This document shows, piece by piece, positions 8,061 through 18,195 of a stretch of DNA of 64,000 bases. Within the stretch, counting starts at the first letter, position 1, and each line of letters begins with the position of its first letter. A program made the translations under genes and the position numbers. The DNA is taken from contig LSIB01000092.1 of the NCBI GenBank assembly GCA_001556025.1, positions 20,593 to 84,592 on the forward strand, read 5' to 3'. This DNA comes from Rhizobiales bacterium CCH3-A5 (GTDB lineage Bacteria; Pseudomonadota; Alphaproteobacteria; Rhizobiales; Beijerinckiaceae). The notes under the pieces are model-generated. The model ran no database searches and had not been told where the DNA came from. It was given only the letters and a program-made list of their open reading frames with translations.

Positions 8061-8164
8061 TGCACTCTATACGGGCCTTGGCGGGGTTCGCTTTCAAACA
8101 ACGTTAACGCAATCGGGTGTCTCCTGGCGAAATTGGACATGATGTCCCGCCGGAGTTCCACCAC

Positions 8165-10289
8165 TTGTTCAGCCTCAGGATCAGGCTTCCCGCCGCGATG
8201 CTGGCGCTCGCCTGTCTGGCGGCACTGGTCGTCGGCATGTCGGCCTATCGCGCCGTGGCCGAATGGGCTCGGGAATCGGTGCGTGAGCGGCTGAGCGATC
8301 TGGCCGAGAGCCATGCCGGCGCGATCGAGCGGCGCTGGGTGCAGGTCAGGTCGGAGCTCTCGGTGCAGGCGCGGAGCGCCTATGCGGTTTCGGCGGTCGA
8401 CGAGATCGGCAAATGGATGGAGCTCGGCGCCTACGACATGCGCCGGATTCTCGACCACTATCAGGCCGGCGGATCGCCCGAGGAGCGCGAGGCGCGCACG
8501 GGCCGTGACCACCAGCATGGCTACTCCTGGCGTCATGTGCCGATCCACGAAACCTATCGCGCCGCGCTGAAGCAGTTCGGCTACGCCGACATGTATCTGG
8601 TTTCGGCCAAGGGGAGGGTGGTCTACAGCGTCAGGAAGGGTCCGGAGTTCGGCCGGCTCGTCAGCGAGTCGGATCTGGTGGAGACCGGCCTTGGCAAGGT
8701 GGTCGCGGCGGCGCGATCTGTGCCGGCCGGCGAGCAGGCGGTCGTCGATTTCGCGCCTTATGATCCGGCTGGTGGCGAGCCGCGCGCCTTCATGGCGCAG
8801 CGCTTCGCCAATACGGAATCCGGCACGGAGAACGGATTCAGCACGCTCGTCATCGCGCTCGACACCAAAATCATGGACGCTGTCCTGGCGACGAATACGA
8901 GCGGCCTGCGCAATGTCGCAACCTATCTGGTCGGCGCGGACGGTTTCATGCGCTCGAACCCGGCCCGCCGGCTCGTTGGCGACGCGCCGGGCGCCGTGCT
9001 CGATCCCGGCCTGTTGGGGCCGGGAAAGAGCGGCATGCTGACGATGACCAGCCGCGATGGCGCGGATCTTCTCGTCACCGGCCGGCCTGTCAGGGTCGGC
9101 GACTGGACCTGGCTGCTCTGGCTGACCGAACCGGAGAAAACCGCCTTCGCCGTCGTCGTCACGATCCGCAATGCGATGCTTGGCGCGGCGCTTATCGTGA
9201 TCGGGCCGCTTCTCGTTTTCGCGCTTTTGCTGGGGCTCTCCGTGGTTCAGCCGATCAGGGGCCTGTCGCAGGCTCTGGCTGGCGTGGCCGACGGGCGAAC
9301 TGACCTCGACATTCCAGGCGCGCAGCGCAAGGACGAGCTCGGCGCCATCGCGGCCTCGGTCCAGCGCATCCGCGAAAACCTGATCCGCGACGAGGCGGGG
9401 CGTCTGGCGGGCCGTGAGGAAGCCGATCTCGAAGCGAGCCGCCAGCGCAGCGCGCTGCTCCGCGACCTCGCCAGCGATCTCGAACGCTCGATCCTCAGCG
9501 TCACCACCGCCGTTTCATCAGCCGCCGAGGAACTCAGCGTCACGGCGAGCGAACTGTCCAACGGCGCCCTGCAGACGCAGGCGAATGCCGGCACGGTCCA
9601 CGATTCGACCTCGCGCGCCATCGCCAGCATCCGCTCGATCGAAGGGGCGGCGCAGGATCTGCGCAGCGCGATCGACAAGCTCGACAGTGATGTGCAGTCT
9701 TCGGATCGCAGTGCGCGCTCGGCCCGCGACTATGCCGACGAGATGGGGGCGGTGGTCGAGTCCCTCGCATCGGGAGCAGCCCGGGTCTCCGACGTGACCG
9801 GGATGATCTCCGACATCGCCGCGCAGACGAACCTCCTCGCGCTCAACGCCACGATCGAGGCTGCGCGCGCCGGCGAGGCGGGCAGGGGCTGTCGTCGCCT
9901 CCGCGGTCAAGGGCCTGTCGGGCCAGACGGCCCGCGCCATCGAGGACATCTCGCGGCAGATCGGCGGCATGAACCAGGCGACGACGGCGACGGTCGAGGC
10001 CATCGCAGGCATTCGCGGCATGATCGGGGATCTGAGCGACACGGTTCGCCGCACCGCCGAGACGATGCGCCACCAGCAGGACGCGGCTCACGCCATCGTC
10101 ACCGAGGTCGGCACCGCGACGGCCGCCTTCAGCCGCATCGGCGAGGCGACGAGCCTCGTCTCATCCGCCTCGCAGCAGACCTCGGACGCCGCCGGCGCGC
10201 TCTTGCGCGCCTCGTCCGAGCTGACCGGCCTGGCCCATGGGCTGAAGGCGCGCGTCGACGAGTTCATCCTGCAAGTCAGGGCGGCGTGA
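8165..10289 (+). pseudogene. Methyl-accepting chemotaxis protein, frameshifted in the signalling tip
   Basis: A chemoreceptor with an N-terminal membrane helix (residues 2-25), a periplasmic Cache-type sensor (about 30-325), a second helix (about 335-360), HAMP, and a methyl-accepting domain. I chose TTG 8165, with GGAG 9 bases upstream; GTG 8117 is an alternative. The frame breaks at about 9888-9892, inside the most conserved hairpin motif: it reads EAARAGEAGRG in one frame and resumes as AVVASAVKGLSGQ in another. Compared with the family GRGFAVVA, five bases are missing, as expected from deletion between two GCT repeats. The first frame then runs into nonsense to 10330, and the correct frame ends at 10289. 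The protein would lack the CheA/CheW-coupling half and should be inactive. Confidence 0.85.
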
Positions 10290-10329
10290 CCGACTTGCAG
10301 CCACGGCGGGCAGGGTCTAACCCTTCCTG

Positions 10330-10833
10330 ATGAGCCGCACAGCCTTCTATCCCGGGTCGTTCGATCCCGTGACCAATGGCCATCTCGATGTGATCTCGGG
10401 CGCCTGCCGGCTCTGCGACCGGCTGGTCATCGCCATCGGCGTCCACCCGGGAAAAGCGCCGATCTTCACCGCCGAGGAGCGCAGCGATCTGCTGCGCGAG
10501 GTCGCGGGGCCGATCGCGCGTGAAGCGGGCGTCTCCATCGAGGTGGTCAGTTTCGACAAGCTGGCGATCTGGGCGGCGCGCGAGGCCGGGGCGACCCTCT
10601 TCGTCCGCGGCCTGCGCGATGGCTCCGACCTCGACTACGAGATGCAGCTCGCCGGCATGAACCGCACGATGGATGGCGGGATTCAGACCGTCTTCCTGCC
10701 GGCCTCGACCGGGGTGCGGCCGATCACGGCGACCCTGGTGCGCCAGATCGCCGGCATGGGCGGCGACGTTTCCCCGTTCGTGCCGCCGGCCGTGAACATG
10801 CGGCTCAGGCAGAAGTTCGGAAAGACGGGCTGA
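10330..10833 (+). CDS. coaD: Pantetheine-phosphate adenylyltransferase
   Basis: CoaD transfers AMP from ATP to 4'-phosphopantetheine, the fourth step of coenzyme A synthesis, in the cytosol. The 167-residue length is normal. The N-terminus [17 protein letters not shown] carries the nucleotidyltransferase T/HxGH motif (NGHLD), and [12 protein letters not shown] and the [13 protein letters not shown] block near residues 120-138 are the substrate-binding and second catalytic signatures. In many Hyphomicrobiales coaD is followed by ppiA-ppiB-queA; here proS follows and the cyclophilin genes lie 40 kb downstream. Confidence 0.96.
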
Positions 10834-13624: not shown

Positions 13625-14314
13625 ATGGCGCGCGAGACCCCGGCGCTCTTCCTGTCACAGGTCGAGCGCTTCTATCCCCAGGCCGACGCGCCGCTCGAAA
13701 TCCTGCGCAAGGCGGATTTCGCGCTCTGGCCGGGCGAACTCGTCGCGCTCGTCGCACCGAGCGGTACCGGCAAATCGACTCTGCTGCATGTCGCAGGCCT
13801 GCTGGAAAAGCCAGATGCCGGCGAGGTCTTCATCGGCGGCATGGCGACGGCCAAGCTAGACGATGCCGGCCGCACGCGGCTGCGCCGCACCGAGATCGGC
13901 TTCGTCTACCAGTTCCATCATCTGCTGCCGGAATTCACAGCGCTGGAGAACGTCGTGCTGCCGCAGCGCATCCGCGGGCTCGACAAGGGGCTGGCCGAGG
14001 AGCGCGCGGCCGAACTGCTGACGTTCCTGGGGCTCGGCGAGCGGCTGGACCATCTGCCCGGCGAACTCTCGGGGGGCGAGCAGCAGCGCGTCGCCATCGG
14101 CCGGGCGATGGCCAATACGCCGCGCCTGCTGCTGGCCGACGAGCCGACCGGCAATCTCGACCCGGTGACCTCGCTTCACGTTTTCTCGACGCTGGTGGCG
14201 CTCGCGCGGGCCTCGGGGCTGGCGGCGCTGATCGCGACCCACAATCTCGATCTCGCCCGGCGGATGGACCGGCAGGTAACGATCCGCGACGGGTTGGTGG
14301 TACCGCTGGAGTGA
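13625..14314 (+). CDS. lolD: Lipoprotein-releasing ABC transporter ATPase
   Basis: The 229-residue ATP-binding subunit that powers LolC. Walker A is [11 protein letters not shown] (about residues 43-53), followed by the Q-loop region [18 protein letters not shown] that is typical of LolD and MacB, signature [14 protein letters not shown], Walker [13 protein letters not shown] and the switch His in IATHN. It is tightly linked to lolC. There is no membrane segment in this product. Confidence 0.95.
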
Positions 14315-14419
14315 GGCGGTGCGGCTTCTCGAATGGTTGCGGCGTTAACCTTCAGGCCACCTTGCTTACCGCCTGTTAACCGCCATCCATACGTCCCTGT
14401 TGGAACTGACGCATCGGCA

Positions 14420-14447
14420 TTGACGAGAACAAAACATGAATTAAACT
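14420..14447 (+). promoter_or_regulatory. Promoter with LexA-like operator
   Basis: TTGACG (14420-14425) and TAAACT (14442-14447) with 16 bases between form a plausible sigma-70 promoter. Filling the spacer is GAAC-N7-GAAT (14427-14441). Read on the other strand this is ATTC-N7-GTTC, one base from the alphaproteobacterial LexA box GTTC-N7-GTTC. Placement between -35 and -10 is that of a repressor operator. The start would be near 14454, giving a leader of about 23 bases before the microprotein. Confidence 0.5.
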
Positions 14448-14476
14448 GGACATAGACAGAACATATGGAGGTGGTG

Positions 14477-14587
14477 ATGGTTGCGATGCGCAAGGTGGCG
14501 GCGGGTCTGGCGGAGCTGGCCTCGCTCGCTCTGTTCCTCGGCATGATCTGGCTTTGGGCGGCGTTGTTCTCGGCGGCGCAGGTCTGA
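14477..14587 (+). CDS. 36-residue membrane microprotein, candidate SidA-like SOS protein
   Basis: The frame from ATG 14477 has a strong GGAGG at 14467-14471, 5 bases upstream. The product is a short basic N-terminus (VAMRK), then a hydrophobic helix of about 25 residues rich in Leu, Ala and Trp (IWLWAALF). In Caulobacter, SidA is a 29-residue, LexA-controlled inner-membrane protein that stops division through the FtsW/FtsN machinery. Size, topology and the LexA-like operator upstream agree with such a role, but I cannot show sequence homology. It sits 128 bases before dnaE and could share its transcript. A simple leader peptide for dnaE is the main alternative. Confidence 0.6.
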   Translation: MVAMRKVAAGLAELASLALFLGMIWLWAALFSAAQV

Positions 14588-14715
14588 CGCTTCGGTCCGA
14601 GCCATCCACAGCCCGCCCGCAACTGCGGCATCTGGCTGCTGGACGCCGTGTGCGCGGGCATCCCAAATGCTCGCGACGCGGAGCGAACGAGTCGCGCCGC
14701 AGGCGAGGGGCGATG

Positions 14716-17700
14716 ATGGGCCGGGACGACAGCGAGGGGCGCATCCTGTCCGAGATCGGCTTCGTGCATTTGCATGTCCATTCGAGCTATTCGCTTCTCG
14801 AAGGCGCAATGACGATCCCGACCATCGCCAAGATGGCGGCTGGCGATAGCCAGCCTGCGCTGGCCCTGACCGACACCAACAACCTGTTCGGTGCGCTGGA
14901 GTTCTCGGAAAAGCTCGCCGGATCCGGCATTCAGCCGATCGCCGGCGTGCAGCTCTCGGTCGATTTCGGCGACGAGGCCGAGGGCGGACGCAAACCCGCG
15001 CTCAACCAGACCCCGCCTCATCTCGTGCTGCTGGCGATGACCGAGGGCGGCTACGGCAATCTGATGAAACTCGTCACCGAAGCCTGCCTGGCGAGCGGCG
15101 GCTCGGGCCAGCCGCTCTCCACGATCGACAGGGTTGGCGCGCACAGTGATGGGCTGATCGCGCTCTCCGGTGGCCATGGCGGGCCAGTCGATCTCGCGCT
15201 GCGCAACGGGCAGTCGGCGCAGGCGAAAGCGCGGCTTTCCACATTGGCAGAAATCTTCGGCGACCGACTTTATGTCGAGATCCAGCGTCATGGCGAGGAA
15301 GGCGAGGCGGCCATCGAGGCTCAGCTCCTCAAGCTCGCCTATGATGCCGACCTCGCAATCGTCGCGACAAACGAACCCTTTTTCGCCAAGCCCGCCGATT
15401 ACGATGCCCATGACGCGCTGCTGGCAGTGGCGGCCGGGCGGCTGGTCTCCGATGGCGAGCGCCGGCGCGTGACCCCGCAGCATCATTTCGCCAGCCGCGC
15501 CGAAATGAAGCGCCGCTTCGCCGATCTGCCCGAGGCGCTGGCCTCGACCGTTGAGATTGCGATGCGCTGCACCTGGCGGGTGGGCCTGCGCAAGCCGATC
15601 CTGCCGCGCTTCGGCGGCGAGAACGGACTCGACGAGGCGGTCGAACTGGAGCTGCAGGCGAAGGCCGGGCTCGCGGCGCGGCTGGCCAAGCACGGGCCAT
15701 CGCCGGGCTTCGACGTCGCGGCCTATGAGGCGCGGCTCGATTTCGAGCTCTCCGTCATCGCCCGGATGAAATATCCGGGCTATTTCCTGATCGTCGCCGA
15801 CTTCATCAAATGGGCGAAGGACCACGACATCCCGGTCGGGCCAGGCCGCGGCTCTGGCGCGGGCTCGCTCGTCGCCTATGCGCTGACGATCACCGACGTG
15901 GATCCGTTGCGCTTCGGCCTGCTGTTCGAGCGCTTTCTCAACCCCGATCGCGTCTCGATGCCGGACTTTGACATCGACTTCTGCCAGAACCGGCGCGAGG
16001 AGGTGATCGACTACGTTCAGCGCCGCTACGGCAAGGAGCGCGTGGCGCAGATCATCACCTTCGGGACGCTGCTGGCGCGCGGCGTGCTGCGCGATGTCGG
16101 GCGAGTGCTGGAGATGCCCTATGGCCAGGTCGACAAGCTGACCAAGCTCGTGCCGCAGAACCCGGCGAAGCCGATCTCGCTGGTCGATGCGATCAAGGGC
16201 GAGCCCAAGCTGCAGCAGGCGGCGGAGGAGGATCAGGTCGTCGCGCGGCTGCTGGAGATCGGCCAGAAGCTCGAAGGCCTGCACCGTCACGCCTCGACTC
16301 ATGCGGCCGGCGTCGTCATTGGCGACCGGCCGCTGGAGGAACTGGTCGCGCTTTCGGTCGATCCGCGCACGGGGATGCGCGTCACCCAGTTCAACATGAA
16401 ATGGGTCGAGCAGGCGGGTCTGGTGAAATTCGACTTTCTCGGCCTCAAGACACTGACCACGCTGACGACCGCCGTGAAGCTGATCAAGCAGCGCAACATC
16501 GACGTCGATCTGGCGAGCCTGCCCTTTGATGATCCCAAGAGCTACGAGATGCTGGCGCGCGGCGAGGTGGTCGGCGTGTTCCAGGTGGAAAGCGCCGGTA
16601 TGCGGCGCGCACTGGTCGAGATGAAGGCCGACCGAATCGAGGATCTGATCGCGCTGGTTGCGCTCTACCGGCCGGGCCCGATGGACAACATCCCGAGCTA
16701 TTGCCGCCGCAAGCTTGGGCTGGAGGAGCCGACCTATCTCCACCCGAAGATGGAAGCCATCCTGGCCGAGACGCATGGCATCATCGTCTACCAGGAGCAG
16801 GTGATGCAGGTGGCCCAAGCCCTGTCGGGTTATTCGCTCGGCGAGGCGGACCTGTTGCGCCGCGCCATGGGCAAGAAGATCAAGGCGGAGATGGACGCCC
16901 AGCGCGACCGCTTCGTGAACGGCGCGGTCGAGGGCGGCATAAAAAAGGACGTGGCGTCCGAAATCTTCGATCTGTTGGCGAAATTTGCCGATTACGGATT
17001 CAACAAGAGCCATGCGGCGGCCTATGCCGTCGTCGCTTTCCAGACCGCCTATCTCAAGGCCAATTTCCCCGTCGAGTTCATGGCGGCGTCGATGACGCTC
17101 GACATGGGCAACACCGACAAGCTCTCGGAATTCCGCCGCGACGCCGAGCGCATGGGCATCAAAGTGCTCCCCCCCGCAATCAACCGCTCGGGCGTCGAGT
17201 TCGACGTGTCGGAGGGCGCGATCCATTATGCGCTGGCCGCGATCAAGGGCGTCGGCGGCGCGGCGGTCGCCTCCATCGTGGCGGCGCGGCAGGCGGGCGG
17301 GCCGTTCAGGGACCTCGCCGATCTGGCGCGGCGGATCGACACCAAGCTGGTCAACCGGCGCACCATCGAGGCCCTGATCGCGGCCGGCGCGCTCGATGCG
17401 CTGGAGCCGGAACGCGCGCGCGCCATGGCGGCGATCGATGGCATGCTGGCGCTCTCGAACCGAACGCGGGAGGCCGCGCTCGGCGGCCAGTCCGAGCTGT
17501 TTGGCGGCAGCGGCGTGCAGGAAGCTTTCCGCATTCCCCCGGTCGAGCCCTGGTCGGCCGCCGAGCGGCTGCGGCGCGAGCACGAGGCTGTCGGCTTCTT
17601 TCTGTCGGGCCATCCGCTCGACGATTATGCCCATGTGCTGAAGCGCCTGCGCGTGCAGCGTTTTTCCGAATTCGCCCAGACGGTCCGGGCCAACGGCACC

Positions 17701-18195
17701 GGCGTCGCCAAGGTCGCGGTCTCGGTGATCGACAAATCCGAACGGCGGACCAAATCCGGCAACAAGATGGGCATCGTGCAATTGTCCGACCCGAGCGGGC
17801 AGTTCGAGGCGATCCTGTTCTCGGAGGGTTTGCAGCGCCATCGCGACCTGCTGGAGCCGGGCCGGGCTCTCGTGCTGCGACTGTCTGCCGTGCTCGACGG
17901 CGAGGAGGTCCGCCCGCGCATCGAGGATGTCGAGGTGCTGGACGATCTTGCCGCCCGTCAGAAGCAGGACCTCTTGGTCTATCTGCGCGACGACAAGGCG
18001 CTGGCGTCGATCGCCGAGCGGGTGCGCCCGCGCAGCGACGGCATCAGGGCCGAGGGCAAGATCGCGCTGGTGATGATCCTCGACGATGGGGCGCAGGAGG
18101 TCGAGATCGAGTTGCCGGGTCGCTATCCGGTGAACCAACAGATCGCCAACGCGGTGCGCGCCGCGCCCGGCGTGGTCAGCGTGGAACTGCGCTGA
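14716..18195 (+). CDS. dnaE: DNA polymerase III alpha subunit
   Basis: The 1159-residue replicative polymerase (DnaE1 type). The N-terminal PHP domain starts with HLHVHSSYSLLEGA. The catalytic palm shows GPGRGSGAGSLVAY and PDFDIDFC (around residues 415-421), which hold the metal-binding aspartates. The fingers, the HhH region (AAIKGVGGAAVASIV, about 840-855) and an OB-fold near 990-1070 follow in the usual order. GAGGGG at 14705-14710 is 5 bases before ATG 14716; ATG 14713 is also possible. It follows lolD and the microprotein. A 1355-residue antisense frame over the same bases is a high-GC shadow. Confidence 0.96.
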   Translation: MGRDDSEGRILSEIGFVHLHVHSSYSLLEGAMTIPTIAKMAAGDSQPALALTDTNNLFGALEFSEKLAGSGIQPIAGVQLSVDFGDEAEGGRKPALNQTPPHLVLLAMTEGGYGNLMKLVTEACLASGGSGQPLSTIDRVGAHSDGLIALSGGHGGPVDLALRNGQSAQAKARLSTLAEIFGDRLYVEIQRHGEEGEAAIEAQLLKLAYDADLAIVATNEPFFAKPADYDAHDALLAVAAGRLVSDGERRRVTPQHHFASRAEMKRRFADLPEALASTVEIAMRCTWRVGLRKPILPRFGGENGLDEAVELELQAKAGLAARLAKHGPSPGFDVAAYEARLDFELSVIARMKYPGYFLIVADFIKWAKDHDIPVGPGRGSGAGSLVAYALTITDVDPLRFGLLFERFLNPDRVSMPDFDIDFCQNRREEVIDYVQRRYGKERVAQIITFGTLLARGVLRDVGRVLEMPYGQVDKLTKLVPQNPAKPISLVDAIKGEPKLQQAAEEDQVVARLLEIGQKLEGLHRHASTHAAGVVIGDRPLEELVALSVDPRTGMRVTQFNMKWVEQAGLVKFDFLGLKTLTTLTTAVKLIKQRNIDVDLASLPFDDPKSYEMLARGEVVGVFQVESAGMRRALVEMKADRIEDLIALVALYRPGPMDNIPSYCRRKLGLEEPTYLHPKMEAILAETHGIIVYQEQVMQVAQALSGYSLGEADLLRRAMGKKIKAEMDAQRDRFVNGAVEGGIKKDVASEIFDLLAKFADYGFNKSHAAAYAVVAFQTAYLKANFPVEFMAASMTLDMGNTDKLSEFRRDAERMGIKVLPPAINRSGVEFDVSEGAIHYALAAIKGVGGAAVASIVAARQAGGPFRDLADLARRIDTKLVNRRTIEALIAAGALDALEPERARAMAAIDGMLALSNRTREAALGGQSELFGGSGVQEAFRIPPVEPWSAAERLRREHEAVGFFLSGHPLDDYAHVLKRLRVQRFSEFAQTVRANGTGVAKVAVSVIDKSERRTKSGNKMGIVQLSDPSGQFEAILFSEGLQRHRDLLEPGRALVLRLSAVLDGEEVRPRIEDVEVLDDLAARQKQDLLVYLRDDKALASIAERVRPRSDGIRAEGKIALVMILDDGAQEVEIELPGRYPVNQQIANAVRAAPGVVSVELR

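Follow-up and report, generated by a model that had tools for sequence, protein, structure and literature searches.

A putative LexA-controlled membrane protein encoded upstream of dnaE in a Bosea-like bacterium appears related to the Caulobacter division inhibitor SidA

The 64,000-nucleotide stretch of DNA analysed here (the window), from a Bosea-like bacterium, carries a 36-residue ORF whose product appears, judged from sequence, to be a relative of the Caulobacter division brake SidA. In the available excerpts of PMC4211646, SidA is described as a 29-amino-acid inner-membrane SOS division inhibitor of Caulobacter that interacts with FtsW, blocks division and acts on FtsW/FtsN. We consider it likely that the window ORF is the local SidA ortholog, which would block late division through FtsW/FtsN; the induction and the target are proposed by analogy with Caulobacter.

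The ORF and its promoter

The elements of the locus were located in the window as follows.

13625..14314, + strand: lolD-like ABC ATPase, upstream neighbour of the ORF
14420..14425, + strand: -35 hexamer TTGACG, read from the sequence and kept in Bosea-type relatives
14427..14441, + strand: LexA box 1, GAAC-N7-GAAT (GAACAAAACATGAAT), one base off consensus, filling the -35/-10 spacer
14442..14447, + strand: -10 hexamer TAAACT, after a 16-nt spacer from TTGACG
14448..14462, + strand: LexA box 2, GGAC-N7-GAAC (GGACATAGACAGAAC), one base off consensus
14467..14471, + strand: ribosome binding site GGAGG, 5 nt before the ATG
14477..14587, + strand: SidA-family ORF, 36 aa, single predicted TM helix (MVAMRKVAAGLAELASLALFLGMIWLWAALFSAAQV)
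14713..18195, + strand: dnaE (DNA polymerase III alpha), 125 nt downstream of the ORF, conserved neighbour

The ORF runs over 36 codons from ATG 14477 to a TGA at 14585-14587; its core is hydrophobic and it is predicted to encode a very short single-pass membrane protein. Starting at another in-frame ATG, 14465, would lengthen the ORF to 40 codons; the 36-codon start is preferred because GGAGG follows ATG 14465 and because the shorter start is kept in relatives. Direct reading of the sequence bore out two proposals of an earlier note on this DNA, a 36-residue ORF with GGAGG at a spacing of 5 and a -35/-10 spacer filled by GAAC-N7-GAAT, one base off a LexA box (14427-14441). The near-consensus box of that note is present, but its count was incomplete, as the second tandem repeat at 14448-14462 had been overlooked. 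Box 2 lies 21 bp downstream of box 1, over the likely start region of the promoter, and TTGACG-16-TAAACT is the sole sigma70-like site between 14200 and 14800, where shuffles average 0.1.

The alphaproteobacterial LexA operator is GTTC-N7-GTTC. In the whole window, one-mismatch LexA boxes are not above chance (33 found, 41.6 expected) and there is no exact box. A lone box is therefore at chance level, and the case for the window boxes rests on conservation.

This conservation was followed in a core sample of 80 loci fetched with the DnaE N-terminus of the window. In the Bosea-type loci among the 80, the segment reads ATTGACGaGAACAAAAcatGAAyTAAnnTGAACaTannnnGAAC...GGAG...ATG, with little variation. 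The two boxes are exactly 21 bp apart in 31 of the 33 closest loci (L001-L033), and TTGACn-16-TAnnnT is found in 28 of 31 (L001-L031); L029 also conforms by eye, unlike L016 and L020. In L001, the closest relative, the second box is exact (GAACATAGACAGAAC), and in several relatives box 1 is an exact GAAC-N7-GAAC. When six Bosea-type genomes were searched, the tandem-box pattern occurred once per genome in four and in none of the other two, with 0 matches for the reversed control. The match in G002 lies directly upstream of the ORF and dnaE, those in G003 and G010 fall by their coordinates within the ranges of dnaE loci L003 and L019, and the only match in the genome of L001 (G001) is 288 nt before the dnaE match. 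Conservation of ORF and box in close relatives had been set as a test by the earlier note; both are kept, and in distant relatives too.

An exact box of the same kind was present at the lexA promoters of 23/23 genomes sampled (fragment L104 left out), which slightly favours reading the window ORF as a SidA ortholog. As a separate observation, these lexA loci (L081-L103) carry the exact GAAC-N7-GAAC plus, mostly, an opposite-orientation GTTC-N7-GTTT about 24-26 nt further, an opposed pair that differs from the tandem arrangement, both boxes in one orientation, ahead of the SidA-like gene.

Chance short ORFs are frequent in GC-rich DNA and the window holds many of them, so this one might be a spurious reading frame behind a LexA-regulated dnaE promoter. 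We regard this as highly improbable, given how the frame has evolved. The window and 30 relatives align gap-free over the 36 codons, with a median dN of 0.21, a median dS of 0.97 and a ratio of 0.20 (454 usable of 465 pairs), and the third codon position varies most (mean entropy 0.56, 0.25 and 1.06 for positions 1-3). Start, length and ribosome site are conserved, nine database proteins of 36-38 aa, unnamed or hypothetical, are 83-97% identical to the window ORF, and the reading frame is kept in the relocated copies described below. By these sequence comparisons, the ORF is under purifying selection as a coding sequence. No Pfam or NCBIfam family was found for the eight members tested, nor any Pfam match for the window ORF at E up to 1.

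Distribution upstream of dnaE and relocated copies

We defined a mechanical rule that asks for a hydrophobic ORF of 24-48 codons preceded, at 8-75 nt, by a LexA-type repeat carrying no more than one mismatch, and further demands a ribosome site and dnaE within 520 nt. This arrangement was found in 69 of the 80 core loci, in 51 of 70 loci of the Caulobacterales, the order to which Marinicauda belongs, and in 15 of 60 class-level loci; the class-level figure is not an unbiased prevalence, because these 60 were hand-picked from about 160 among the matches listed (of 369), ranked by DnaE similarity to the window. The Caulobacterales-order loci comprise the 30 best matches of 120 genomes and 40 hand-chosen ones, half of these selected on genome size and half on rank. 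None of 1050 dinucleotide shuffles and none of 942 other upstream pieces conformed to the rule. With the dnaE limit widened to 600 nt, it was also satisfied by 34 of 70 Hyphomicrobiales loci (Bosea's order), a sample made up of the top 30 among 90 genomes with a match and 40 from further down the ranked list.

Three HMMs, at 15 bits, recognised the ORF before dnaE in 73/80, 56/70, 16/60 and 38/70 of these samples in the same order, that is, in 183 of 280 regions. A box lies within 110 nt for 182 of the 183 recognised ORFs, a figure that is partly circular since the HMMs were trained on box-selected ORFs. A less circular test used an HMM built from core loci only; these training loci were also box-selected, and the 197 other loci on which it was tried were not. 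At 15 bits, 40 of the 197 were positive, all 40 with a box and 38 with an exact one; at 10 bits, 56 of 57 positives had a box. For comparison, small ORFs in loci unscored by the core HMM had a box in 189 of 1042 cases, some of these loci holding missed family members. Three of the 280 regions (L111, L241 and L260, repeat genomes of L079, L002 and L182) were left out of the 197-locus test. The family ORF is absent from 45 of the 60 class-level loci by the mechanical rule and from 97 of the 280 regions by HMM. Members are about 32 aa long, and 135 distinct natural variants were collected.

The gene lolD was tried as a conserved neighbour and rejected. A lolD match (E up to 1e-5; at most 1500 nt upstream, about 900 nt for fetched regions) was lacking in 56 of the 135 mechanical positives, which leaves dnaE as the linked gene, and none was found upstream in the Caulobacter-type loci ("Caulobacter-type", "Hyphomonad" and "Rhodobacter-like" are group labels assigned in this analysis).

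The constancy of this position raises an alternative that the earlier note had also named, namely that the ORF is an SOS leader for dnaE, its translation or its LexA promoter serving mainly to raise dnaE during SOS. The ORF is co-directional with dnaE in the 183 HMM-positive regions, its stop is separated from the dnaE match by only 43-86 nt in ten Caulobacter-type loci (L141-L147, L150, L152 and L155), and no terminator was found between ORF and dnaE in the window. However, in five named Methylobacterium genomes (L037, L040, L041, L042 and L045) and the Methylobacterium-type G424 there is neither a family ORF nor an exact box before dnaE, and each of these six genomes has a 34-aa family member at another place, preceded at exactly 32 nt by GAACAAAACA(A/G)GAAC. 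Since ORF and exact box have relocated together away from dnaE, gene and operator travel as a unit, which argues for a gene of its own and against a dnaE leader. Boxes left at dnaE where the ORF is missing give the same indication: in 10 of the 97 HMM-negative loci an exact box lies no more than 620 nt upstream (background, 9 of 717 downstream pieces), 5 of these 10 boxes are in the other orientation and at most 80 nt from the dnaE match, and one of the 10 loci, L174, holds a sub-threshold family ORF. The protein sequence is, moreover, under selection. We thus disfavour the leader alternative and consider it improbable; dnaE is probably not the main LexA target, and its expression could well be raised secondarily by read-through from the SidA-like gene.

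Two loci, L256 and L262, have an exact LexA repeat before dnaE and no recognised SidA-like ORF; their boxes are possibly true dnaE operators or remnants of decayed genes. The relocated Methylobacterium-type loci are L316 and L328-L332, and an ORF close by on the opposite strand in L330 looks, by eye, MotB/OmpA-like. Of the 24 genomes in which no dnaE-linked copy was detected, only G424 has a clear copy at another site; for the other 23 the best E was 0.057 or worse, or nothing was found. Salinarimonas (L043) has a less convincing candidate away from dnaE (E 0.004), whose longest ORF is preceded at 77 nt by an exact box, and no family copy was found in Enterovirga (L055).

Relationship to SidA

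The likeness to SidA claimed in the earlier note is supported by gene position, as a SidA-named protein is itself the ORF before dnaE in a Caulobacter-type genome. In the ten Caulobacter-type loci listed above, the ORF before dnaE is 29 aa long, and that of L150 is 100% identical over 29 aa to P0010, "cell division inhibitor SidA [Caulobacter sp.]". Like SidA, the window ORF is short, has a single predicted TM helix and follows LexA-type repeats in its promoter; dnaE is directly downstream in Caulobacter-type genomes, as it is, at 125 nt, in the window. The window protein differs from SidA in being 36 aa long, 7 longer, and in having a Trp at a column where Caulobacter-type SidA has none; its promoter differs in having a pair of boxes at a distance of 21 bp, the first of which occupies the -35/-10 spacer.

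Profile comparisons were made in both directions. An HMM built from 82 Hyphomicrobiales sequences gave 17.1-22.8 bits to all but one of 18 distinct Caulobacter-type sequences. The exception (L175) scored 9.0; the other 17 include the 8 SidA-named sequences, none of them below 17.2 bits. With the same HMM, 900 shuffles reached at most 10.6 bits (2 reaching 9.0) and reversed sequences at most 4.3. The reverse search is weak: the Caulobacter-type SidA HMM gives the window 3.0 bits (E 9.6), its own 20 shuffles scoring up to 2.8, and 8 bits or more were reached by 0 of 30 Bosea-type ORFs, 6 of 70 other Hyphomicrobiales ORFs and 6 of 2020 shuffles. In hhalign, the Bosea group aligned with SidA at a probability of 28 and 30% identity over 27 columns, with 1 of 60 permuted-column controls as high; for the other Hyphomicrobiales against SidA, 3 of 60 were as high. 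Intermediate groups bridge the two ends: no control out of 60 was as high for the Caulobacter type against the Marinicauda type or for the Bosea type against the Hyphomonad type, and 2 of 60 were for Bosea against the Marinicauda type. Two Rhodobacter-like sequences compared with Hyphomicrobiales gained no hhalign support, since 34 of 60 permuted controls scored as high. The case for homology to SidA combines the common position and operator with the results of the broad HMM and of the intermediate groups.

Among the 120 matches listed of 177 in a family-profile search, proteins of Caulobacter zeae, segnis and mirabilis are named SidA, as are some unplaced Proteobacteria/Pseudomonadota records, and relatives from Methylorubrum, Methylobacterium and Tepidamorphus are named hypothetical. 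Among all names seen, SidA was given only to Caulobacter/Caulobacteraceae and unplaced proteobacterial records. One 31-aa match of this search, P0045, is named a twin-arginine translocation signal protein, perhaps a misannotation.

Proposed action and comparison with other SOS inhibitors

The family motif begins with an acidic residue near the helix start, which occupies either of two sites, i or i+3. A Phe follows at a distance of ten or seven residues, and a Trp comes seven residues after the Phe (F-x6-W). Bosea types use the second acidic position, the window residues being Glu13, Phe20 and Trp27. Caulobacter-type SidA is without the Trp common to most relatives, and its contacts may therefore differ. 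Core conservation peaks at 105 degrees per residue, with a permutation p of 0.0002 for hand-chosen core columns and 0.04 for all columns; for Hyphomicrobiales alone, the one-face signal has p 0.013 with core columns and is not significant with all columns (0.13). Such a peak is as expected of one helix face that would pack on a membrane partner. AlphaFold2 predicts one helix over residues 2-37 of a 40-residue query (pLDDT 95), an outcome that most such sequences would give.

From these features we propose the following course of events, in which, by analogy with Caulobacter, LexA would bind the window promoter, DNA damage would induce it and FtsW/FtsN would be the target. LexA on one or both tandem repeats would sit over the spacer along with the probable start region and keep the gene off, and RecA-promoted LexA cleavage would free the sigma70-type promoter. 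From the strong ribosome site, the 36-residue protein would then be made and insert in the inner membrane, its N-terminus probably inside in view of the basic N-end. The conserved helix face (acidic residue, Leu/Ser, Phe and Trp) would pack against the FtsW/FtsI/FtsN machinery, and constriction would be stopped until LexA reaccumulates. Models of 2026, not of high confidence, place SidA at FtsW TM7 (PMC13396833, in excerpt).

A protein of this kind might instead be a LexA-controlled membrane toxin of the TisB/DinQ type, causing depolarisation and persistence and not inhibiting division. TisB is similar in size to the window protein. Such SOS-controlled single-TM peptides do exist in E. coli, namely TisB (PMC8145889) and DinQ (PMC3567139), and as described in the excerpts available they resemble the window protein in its putative control and predicted topology; they differ in being toxic peptides, DinQ with antisense RNAs (PMC3567139). 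The homology to SidA and the one-face pattern with its conserved Phe and Trp speak against a toxin of this type, as does the strong ribosome site directly before the start. We therefore hold this reading to be unlikely. An Rfam scan of 14250-14900 gave no RNA family match beyond one sub-threshold hit.

As a division inhibitor of the SidA kind, the window protein can be set beside several known systems, each likened by description or role. According to the excerpts of PMC4211646, DidA of Caulobacter is also a small single-TM inhibitor of late divisome proteins, but it is 71 aa long, SOS-independent and DriD-driven. The Gram-positive YneA, SosA and ChiZ are damage-induced small membrane division inhibitors. 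In models that fall short of high confidence, as excerpted from PMC13396833, they are positioned at FtsW, as is SidA, with SidA across TM7 of FtsW from the others; ChiZ differs further in having a LysM domain. SulA of E. coli shares the role of SOS division inhibitor but acts on FtsZ (PMC4211646, in excerpt). Pfam SulA (PF03846) was found in 0 of 12 Bosea-type genomes, and of the 14 genomes searched the control was positive in E. coli only.

Beyond the window, it is fairly likely that SidA, far from being peculiar to Caulobacter, is the ancestral SOS brake on division in much of the Alphaproteobacteria, a single helix of about 24-47 residues (a range bounded by the search rule) with a conserved binding face and a LexA operator that was kept at dnaE or moved along with the gene. 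In the portions of the literature available, no SOS division inhibitor is named for Bosea, Methylobacterium, Chelatococcus or Xanthobacteraceae, and SidA, where mentioned, is discussed for Caulobacter (PMC4211646, PMC12700426, PMC13384398, PMC6473078, PMC4117421, PMC13396833, PMC9578287, PMC10957082); an earlier notice of the wider spread or of the dnaE neighbourhood is possible. We suggest that such genes were overlooked because of their length of about 32 aa and because no Pfam or NCBIfam model exists for the eight tested. With a concrete gene and operator now pinned in the 183 alphaproteobacterial regions, a missing piece of the alphaproteobacterial SOS response would, on a class-wide view, become directly testable, and the collected variants of this tiny presumed FtsW/FtsN ligand offer a conserved face that is open to mutation.

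Elsewhere in the window, the methyl-accepting chemotaxis-type ORF at 8117-10330 shows an apparent frame change near 9.85-9.97 kb, judged by eye, and its typical C-terminal part runs on in another frame (ORF 9969-10289); this seems to be a sequencing error or a decayed gene.
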